DNA from: Shouchella miscanthi
GTDB taxonomy: Bacteria; Bacillota; Bacilli; Bacillales; Bacillaceae_D
Direction of reading: 5' to 3'
NCBI RefSeq assembly: GCF_007725405.1
Contig: NZ_CP042163.1
Location: forward strand, 3,968,001 to 4,032,000
DNA length: 64,000 nucleotides
The notes under the pieces were generated by a model. It saw nothing but the letters and a program-made list of their open reading frames with translations, ran no database searches and had not been told where the DNA came from. The position numbers and the translations under genes are program-made. Shown here piece after piece: positions 9,300-47,889 of the stretch (the first letter of the stretch is position 1; each line of letters starts with the position of its first letter).

Positions 9300-9398
9300 T
9301 GCATTTCATCTCCTTTTGCCCTGAATCTATTCGAAACAGAGTTTTCCTCACATAATCGAAATTATATCAAGCCCACACCAAATTTGCAAGATCAACTT

Positions 9399-46687: not shown

Positions 46688-46722
46688 AAAGGTTCATCGC
46701 CTATGGCGATGAACCTTTCTTT
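46688..46722. terminator. Bidirectional terminator
   Basis: Fourteen-bp perfect stem AAAGGTTCATCGCC/GGCGATGAACCTTT with a 3-base loop between convergent hemQ and yidC. Confidence 0.92.
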
Positions 46723-47516
46723 TATGCACGATCTTTTTCAACATCTTCTTTATTCAAATTCGGACGTACAATAATGAAGTAGGTTTGAACAATCATAAAG
46801 ATGTTACCAATTACCCAGTAAAGCGCTAATGCTGATGGTAATGTTAATCCGGCAATGATAATCATCACAGGCATAATCCACAGCATAATGTTCATTGGAT
46901 TTGGCATTCCTTCACCTAACGGATTAGCAGGCATTTGACTCATCGACATTTTGAATTGAACAAAAGTCGTTATACCAGCAATAAACGGAAGCACTGGGTC
47001 CATTTGTCCGAGATTAAACCAAAGGAAATCACTTTCAGGTCCTTGCCCAATCGCTTCCGTTCGCATTATCGCAAAATAAAGCGCCATAACAATTGGAATT
47101 TGCACAAGTGCAGGTAAACAACCAGCGGCTGGATTAACGCCATGCTTTTGGTACATACCAATCATTTCTGACTGCACTTCTCGTTGTTTCTCGGGGTTCC
47201 CCTGTGCTTTTTTCATGCGCTCTTGAATTTCCTGCATTTCAGGTCTTAACGCCTGCATCGCTCGAGAACTCTTTTGTGATTTTAACGCAAGTGGCAAGAT
47301 CAGCAAACGAATCAGGATTGTTACAATGACAATCCCCCAGCCAAAATGACCTCCCGTCAAATCAGAGAAGAATTGAATTAAGAATGACATTGGATAGACG
47401 AAAAATGAGTTCCAAAAGCCTTCAGAGTCAGCCGTTATAGGCTCGTCTATTCCACAGGCAGCTAGCACCACTGCCATAAAAAGTAAGCTTGTTGTTAAAA
47501 GAATTTTTCTTTTCAT
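46722..47516 (-). CDS. yidC: YidC/Oxa1-family membrane protein insertase (lipoprotein)
   Basis: A 264-residue Oxa1-family insertase. A lipoprotein signal ([11 protein letters not shown], lipobox Cys21) precedes five membrane segments. The hydrophilic groove Arg70 in [15 protein letters not shown] and the conserved cytoplasmic hairpin ([20 protein letters not shown]) are present, as is [19 protein letters not shown]. It is neither at the rnpA locus near oriC (spoIIIJ) nor in the yqjG neighbourhood, so it is likely an inducible second copy. Its AAAGGAGG Shine-Dalgarno is 14 bases before the ATG, which is long, and half of it lies in a hairpin with the end of the leader ORF at 47561-47821. Confidence 0.95.
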
Positions 47517-47534
47517 ACGTTTCTCTATTTCCTC

Positions 47535-47573
47535 CTTTGTTGTCTCACATCGCTGTTTCTTTAGACAACAAAG
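47535..47573 (-). promoter_or_regulatory. Hairpin masking the yidC Shine-Dalgarno
   Basis: Minus strand: arm CTTTGTTGTCT (47573-47563), 17-base loop, arm AGACAACAAAG (47545-47535), a perfect 11-bp stem. The first arm encodes the last codons (Phe-Val-Val) and the first base of the stop codon of the leader ORF. The second arm contains the AAAG of the yidC Shine-Dalgarno (47531-47538). No T-run follows, so it is not a terminator. A ribosome halted on the last codons of the leader would open it. Confidence 0.75.
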
Positions 47574-47821
47574 TACAGTTCATCGTCATCTTGACAGCTC
47601 TTATCTCGAAAGTACGGAATCTTCGGGCGTACGCGAGTAGTAACTGGCGACGGAGGAAGATCAATGATTCTTCCTGTATTTAACGTTTTACGAACAGGAC
47701 GTTTCATCTTCACATGCATTCTGTGGAGCTTAATATTTTCATATGCTAAACAAGCAAGAATAGGAAGCAATATACCAACATGAATCCATATAAACGATAG
47801 CTCTAGAAATAAATCAATCAT
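47561..47821 (-). CDS. Candidate ribosome-arrest leader peptide upstream of yidC
   Basis: An 86-residue ORF with AGGAGGTGA just before the ATG, so it is certainly well translated. The first residues are acidic ([10 protein letters not shown]), then comes one membrane segment ([17 protein letters not shown], ~11-27), a strongly basic part ([15 protein letters not shown]) and a tail [20 protein letters not shown] ending YFVV. By the positive-inside rule the N-terminus would face out, an insertion type that depends on YidC. MifM of B. subtilis has the same design: N-terminal membrane segment, stalling in an acidic stretch near the C-terminus, and a hairpin over the insertase gene's ribosome site. 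There is no clear sequence identity to MifM. Role inferred from architecture only; that it is a real gene is well supported. Confidence 0.75.
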
Positions 47822-47860
47822 CCTCCATCACCTCCTCCGATACCTTTTCACAATATTCCC

Positions 47861-47889
47861 ATCTTACCATACTCACTGAGCAAGAACAA
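47861..47889 (-). promoter_or_regulatory. Promoter of the leader-yidC unit
   Basis: Minus strand: -35 TTGTTC (47884-47889), 17-base spacer, -10 TAAGAT (47861-47866), preceded by TGG as an extended element. It lies in the gap after yhaP, so leader and yidC form their own transcript. Confidence 0.6.

Follow-up and report, generated by a model that had tools for sequence, protein, structure and literature searches.

In Bacillus subtilis, mifM precedes the second yidC paralog. In Shouchella miscanthi an 86-codon ORF lies directly ahead of a yidC gene, in a stretch of 64,000 nucleotides (contig NZ_CP042163.1, positions 3,968,001 to 4,032,000) that was analyzed as a whole and is called the window here. 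This raises the question of whether the product of the ORF is an arrest peptide through which the cell senses the activity of its YidC insertase. We consider that the leader is a monitoring-substrate of YidC of the MifM type, working like MifM, with a probability of about 0.87. This reading draws on the position of the ORF, a co-varying stem, a conserved peptide core, a predicted membrane segment together with its spacing, and a conserved promoter-like site, all of them read from sequence. We infer the stalling, the exact stall codon, the way in which YidC would release the ribosome, and whether yidC2 expression rises or falls in response.

The leader ORF and the yidC2 gene

The leader ORF is located at 47561-47821 on the reverse strand, and encodes 86 amino acids from an ATG start. 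An in-frame TGA is found three codons 5′ of this ATG, which is therefore the first possible start, and a Shine-Dalgarno (SD) sequence AGGAGG (47831-47836, −) is placed 9 nt before it. The leader stop codon is 44 nt from the ATG of yidC. On re-reading, the ORF, this distance and the C-terminal tail of the peptide are as the original prediction had them, and the single N-terminal membrane segment that it proposed is also predicted here. The prediction is from hydropathy only, at residues 8-26 (47744-47800, −). The charge is −2 before it and +6 in the 20 residues after it, and the positive-inside rule predicts an N-out/C-in orientation. The leader ORF gave no match in Pfam, NCBIfam (E up to 5) or the PDB sequences (E up to 10).

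A probable sigma-A promoter lies at 47861-47889 (−), just past the stop codon of the upstream gene. It reads TTGTTC-17-TAAGAT, and a TG precedes its −10 element. The sequence TTGTYC-17-TAAGAT occurs 67-70 nt 5′ of the leader start in all eight Shouchella loci compared, and there are looser matches in the three loci compared from other genera. The site in the window scored below the threshold of a consensus promoter scan.

The gene that follows the leader (46722-47516, −) matches the YidC/Oxa1 insertase models TIGR03592 (E = 2.7e-58) and PF02096 (E = 3.1e-52). The YidC model matches at least two places in each of the 13 Shouchella genomes searched; G006 has three matches, two of which are pieces of one broken copy. 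The other copy in the window genome is at the end of the chromosome (G000:C1:4248758-4249480), among ORFs that we take to be jag-, rnpA- and rpmH-like. Genes of this kind mark the usual place of spoIIIJ. Since the other copy occupies that place, the yidC gene of the window is the second paralog, yidC2, and would be the regulated gene. Its SD sequence AAGGAGG is at 47531-47537 (−), and AAAGGAGG ends 14 nt before the ATG, which is a long spacing. Between yidC2 and the convergent gene there is a 14-bp inverted repeat (46688-46718), perhaps a shared terminator.

Pairing between the end of the leader and the yidC2 SD sequence

The sequence CTTTGTTGTCT (47573-47563, −) lies inside the last leader codons and includes the T of the stop codon. 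It pairs with AGACAACAAAG (47545-47535, −) to form a stem of 11 perfect base pairs with a 17-nt loop, so placing an anti-SD arm within the leader. The 3′ arm includes the AAAG of AAAGGAGG, and no T-run is found 3′ of the stem in the window, in agreement with the perfect stem originally described. Of 42,656 18-nt segments taken from both strands of the window at steps of 3, 16 pair as stably with the yidC2 SD region, and so do seven of the 384 possible synonymous codings of the terminal LYFVV. The stem of the window is not a chance one.

For comparison across loci 39 leaders were chosen, 34 with the RKIP-type core described below and five of MifM; near-duplicates and L143, L149, L150 and L151 had been left out before counting. 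Thirty-six of these (31 RKIP-type and five MifM) were analyzed, as L017, L118 and L121 were dropped because the rule for picking the SD placed it inside the ORF. In 29 of the 36 loci no more than 1% of segments of equal length from the same locus pair with the SD as well as the leader tail does, and in 33 no more than 5% do, leaving L114, L116 and MIF_L078 outside. Pairing is weak in L114, L116 and some of the MifM loci. When the tails of 34 loci were recoded synonymously, between 0 and 442 of 1000 recoded tails were as good as the native one.

Tails and SD regions were also reassigned between loci, using 26 groups with one locus each, three of them MifM. The window and L003, whose SD spacing is beyond the picking limit, were added by hand. 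The duplexes of the own pairs have a mean of −14.5 kcal/mol compared with −9.3 kcal/mol on reassignment. No reassigned set in 20,000 was as good as the own pairs, and the result was again 0 of 20,000 when AAGGAGG itself was left out. In an ungapped 13-pair register, which counts bulged stems too low, the mean over 47 loci was 10.7 pairs for own and 9.35 for foreign combinations (sd 1.22). Base pairs 6, 9 and 12 occur as T-A, A-T and G-C, and 6 and 12 also as C-G. These comparisons indicate a pairing that persists in most loci despite sequence change on both of its sides, which is the covariation among relatives that had been proposed as a check on the stem.

Ribosome position and access to the SD sequence

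The effect of a ribosome on the stem was modeled as a footprint placed at successive codons of the leader. As the mean of the 36 loci, the predicted accessibility of the yidC2 SD stayed at 0.09-0.11 while the footprint lay between 24 and 4 codons short of the last acidic codon (0.10 at −4), and it was 0.20, 0.33 and 0.36 at −2, 0 and +2 codons respectively. A coarser test gave a rise of more than 0.1 in 28 of the 36 loci (mean 0.09 to 0.31), and a mean of 0.11 for a footprint 20 codons upstream. On the mean of the 36 loci the SD is predicted to open first when the ribosome reaches the acidic run. In the window alone, the accessibility is 0.24-0.37 even with the footprint 24 to 4 codons before the last acidic codon, and the value for a footprint 20 codons upstream is 0.35 versus 0.30. 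As upstream footprints also raise the accessibility there, the model is not specific to the acidic codons in the window. The idea that a ribosome on the DDDE codons covers the first arm of the stem is consistent with the mean of the 36 loci, but the window taken alone singles out no acidic codons.

The mechanism that we propose is as follows. The N-out segment of the nascent leader would begin to enter the membrane by way of YidC. When the capacity of YidC is low, the ribosome would stall as the acidic run D78-E81 reaches the peptidyl-transferase center or its immediate vicinity. It would be held there by the R-P-K-I-P core, lying by then some 10-14 residues further up the exit tunnel. The stalled ribosome would mask the anti-SD arm, leaving the yidC2 SD free, and more insertase would be made. 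If insertion is successful the resulting pulling would free the ribosome, the stem would re-form and yidC2 would be shut.

In the same model a footprint near the stop codon also opens the stem (0.47 at +6 codons, mean of 36 loci), so that geometry alone cannot separate arrest from plain translational coupling. In that case ribosomes at the end of the leader would open the stem, with neither arrest nor sensing of YidC. In the model the stem is opened by every ribosome that has reached or passed the acidic codons, and a single promoter-like site precedes both genes, as coupling would have it. Yet coupling requires no membrane segment and no conserved core, and both have been kept, while the last codons change freely as protein. 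Moreover, the same layout in B. subtilis, with MifM, is based on arrest (PMC6037786). We therefore regard simple coupling as improbable.

Conservation of the peptide core

The conserved core comprises residues 63-81 (47579-47635, −), with the acidic run D78-E81 at 47579-47590. Residues P59, R65, P66, K67, P69, D78 and D79 are invariant in 15 aligned sequences, and conservation in the K67 and P69 columns stays at 90% or more across 27 more distant ones. In its general form the core reads K-[IV]-P; an acid often follows four positions later, and after that comes a run of two to six acidic residues. Of 34 RKIP-type sequences, 32 have the first acid of this run 9-12 residues past the K; L057 was measured from a different K, and in L112 the script found none. 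Thus R-P-K-I-P and an acidic run about 11 residues further on persist, and the rest of the leader diverges. This is the RVRPKIP...DDDE region that had been suggested as the arrest motif, and it is the conserved part across genera in the alignment of upstream regions.

In 21 pairs drawn from seven Shouchella leaders, silent changes exceed replacements over residues 61-81 in 15 pairs, with a tie in three and fewer in three. The corresponding numbers of pairs with more silent changes are three of 21 for the linker and four of 21 for the membrane segment. Conservation of the C-terminal residues, which had been proposed as a check, extends to the core but not to the very last residues: the LYFVV end has no conservation at the protein level in the relatives. 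In L007-L010 the frame is altered past the acids, where it reads DDDGPYPCCMHQ..., and the ORF is longer; the pairing with the SD is kept in L007, the one of these that was tested. To judge from these sequences, the peptide past the acidic run is free to change.

It might be supposed that the product of the ORF is a small membrane protein, stable and acting together with YidC, and that the stem is an incidental piece of regulation. Such a protein would suit the predicted membrane segment and the constant place beside yidC2, but then it is hard to see why, in most pairs, the membrane segment and linker should have more replacements than silent changes, why the C-terminus should tolerate a change of frame, or why in 33 of 36 loci the tail should outdo 95% of local stretches in pairing with the SD. 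We consider this very unlikely. Masking of the SD is predicted for the stem by itself, but an RNA-only switch responding to temperature, ligand or ion, in which the ORF is unimportant, is extremely unlikely given that no Rfam family matches the leader-yidC2 region at the gathering threshold, the peptide core is conserved and the pairing is kept while the paired letters change.

Distribution of the leader

A search with the single protein gave matches in 18 of 60 related genomes, comprising the window genome (G000), 10 of the 11 other members of the genus, and seven from other genera. The named species with the leader are Shouchella oshimensis, xiaoxiensis, shacheensis, tritolerans, clausii and rhizosphaerae, Alkalicoccobacillus porphyridii, murimartini and gibsonii, and Alkalihalophilus marmarensis and pseudofirmus OF4, covering 11 loci. 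Within the family, 38 of 41 genomes match a leader profile at E ≤ 0.001. Comparison of coordinates shows that all 38 of these leaders adjoin the second yidC, at 32-81 nt from match edge to match edge. In L006 (G006) the frame of the leader is changed before the acids. The G006 assembly is 86% complete and its other yidC is broken, so a sequence error is possible in this case.

In the order as a whole 18 of 397 genomes match with profile A1 (E ≤ 0.001), 53 with A2 (E ≤ 0.1) and 49 with A4 (E ≤ 0.01). The weakest A2 and A4 matches, which are often partial or have internal stops, are probably due to chance. A YidC-like ORF is next in all 12 of the loci L110-L121 from the A2 set, and in nine of the 11 loci L141-L151 from the A4 set. 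The exceptions are L143 (G253), which has an in-frame stop in the leader and for which the script stopped short of the next gene, and L151. The latter (G311:C1:2844956-2846499) is a short ORF containing SSKIPFLNQRETKDDEE; it is a weak match to the profile, with no adjoining yidC in the stretch examined. Besides f1, the family of the window, at least five more families of the order have RKIP-type leaders beside yidC, namely f5, f12, f28, f35 and f42. In the f28 loci L118, L121 and L149 the leader continues for tens of residues past the acids, reaching into the next ORF found in the case of L121 and L149; regulation in f28 may be arranged differently.

Loss and replacement of the leader

Absence of both the C-terminus of the ORF and the stem from close relatives had been named as evidence that would count against the original prediction. 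It was found in one of the 13 genomes of the genus, as a single loss in which the promoter and yidC2 were kept. This is G007, a Shouchella of 2.6 Mb (L152, G007:C8:63258-65204), where the leader ORF is gone and the promoter-like site reads TTGTTC-17-TATGAT. Its YidC2 groups among those of Shouchella in the tree. The arm has gone as well, since the strongest pairing of any stretch of its short leader with the SD is only −6.5 kcal/mol, and 8.6% of stretches of the locus are as good. Without a leader ORF the SD is still predicted to be mostly paired (unpaired 0.21). A small hairpin is present where the leader ORF stood.

Two further genomes, G032 (L154) and G420 (L155), have no match to the RKIP profile; the leader that occupies this position in them has RRQTWLTCLTKRKESPEDDGD, or a sequence near to it, as its core. 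Instead of the RKIP core this reads TWL....KRKESPEDDGD in G032 and VWL....KRKESPEDDGD in G420, and it lines up by hand with W73 and D86-D89 of MifM. A profile of five MifM sequences misses both leaders (E ~110 and 7, below some shuffles and background). We call them MifM-like because of the hand-aligned core and the place, to which the YidC2 tree is added for G032. In this tree the YidC2 of G032 groups with three YidC2s of MifM loci against the other 39 sequences with support of 100/99. The YidC2s of MifM thus lie on the other side of this branch from those of RKIP type. The tree is unrooted, with a long MifM branch (1.27) and five Shouchella SpoIIIJ sequences on the RKIP side, and so makes no statement on which class is older. 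G420 is absent from it, as its yidC2 frames are broken. That a class of leader travels with its yidC2 is suggested by one swap, that of G032. In L154 and L155 the frame of the leader runs over the start of yidC2.

Relationship to MifM and other arrest peptides

The leader resembles MifM in being a small peptide with one N-terminal membrane segment that precedes the second yidC, in having an acidic run near the C-terminus, and in the pairing of its tail codons with the yidC2 SD. The distance from the end of the segment to the last acid is 55 residues, compared with 58-59 in five MifM sequences by the same measure and a published median of 54 for MifM (PMC10987492). The acidic run is required by MifM (PMC13183943). 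A 2024 survey gathered 572 Firmicutes ORFs into a MifM cluster, with negative charge as one of the grounds for selection, namely a local charge below −0.3 in residues 70-100 (PMC10987492); QDDDE at residues 77-81 of the leader has −0.8 per residue. That cluster may already include such ORFs, although neither Shouchella nor clausii is named in the main text of PMC10987492 or PMC7897499. The RKIP core motif was not found in the main texts of the open-access literature searched.

The two peptides differ in their cores. The residues of the MifM motif are R69, I70, W73 and I74, followed by M and N (PMC7897499, PMC4423224), here numbered M80 and N81 by counting along the motif. The pattern RIxxWIxxxxxMNxxxxDEED does not occur in the leader, where only the acidic end corresponds clearly; in its place is the proline-rich R-P-K-I-P about 11 residues before the acids. 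Since the residues of the MifM motif are not conserved in the leader, the contacts with the tunnel must differ at least in part.

Profile comparisons were made between the two groups. The RKIP profile gave a best E of 0.026 against five MifM proteins, with shuffled sequences reaching 0.063 and four of the five within the shuffle range; the background of this search still contained a few members of the family. Alignment of 20 with five sequences by hhalign gave a probability of 19%, over 44 columns of the membrane segment. With G032 and G420 added on the MifM side the probability was 89% over 88 columns, which span most of the peptide, with a score of 34.2, compared with at most 28.4 in 150 block-shuffled controls. 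The C-terminal 41 columns scored 18.5, against no more than 16.4 in another 150 shuffles. The last of these comparisons favors a distant common origin of the leader and MifM, which we take as likely though short of proof. The original prediction was of a functional analogue of MifM with an arrest motif of its own. It does have a core of its own, but this is common to a large group, and the leader is probably a distant homologue.

A more far-reaching view is that the RKIP leaders are a separate and widespread class of insertase monitor, whose own stalling chemistry either arose independently or has diverged to the point of having little beyond architecture in common with MifM, and that whole leader-yidC2 cassettes of both classes interchange between species. 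The proline-rich K-[IV]-P core would then lie in the constriction of the tunnel with the acids at the catalytic center. This is a tentative proposal, to which we give somewhat less than an even chance. The arrest peptides before yidC have been counted as three, MifM, ApcA and CliM (PMC13183943, 2026), and the RKIP group would add a fourth stalling signature, which here spans six families within a single order. Its core comes in dozens of natural variants that lend themselves to a mutational reading, and one natural deletion (G007) and two natural replacements (G032 and G420) provide material on the evolution of the sensor.

Returning to the leader as a probable MifM-type monitor of YidC, it shares its position before yidC with the two other peptides. 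CliM of Clostridia (uC_KYxIW) also precedes a second yidC and was shown to monitor YidC (PMC13183943), but it has a KYxIW core, absent from the leader, and does not rely on acidic residues. ApcA of actinomycetes is likewise an arrest peptide before yidC (PMC13183943), but has an RAPG motif (PMC10987492). No RAPP/RAGP-like C-terminal motif (of the RAPP/RQH, ApcA or SecM type) is present in the leader or its aligned relatives.

The window also contains an L31-Firmicutes ribosomal protein leader at 9310-9341 (−) (Rfam RF03156, 41.2 bits).
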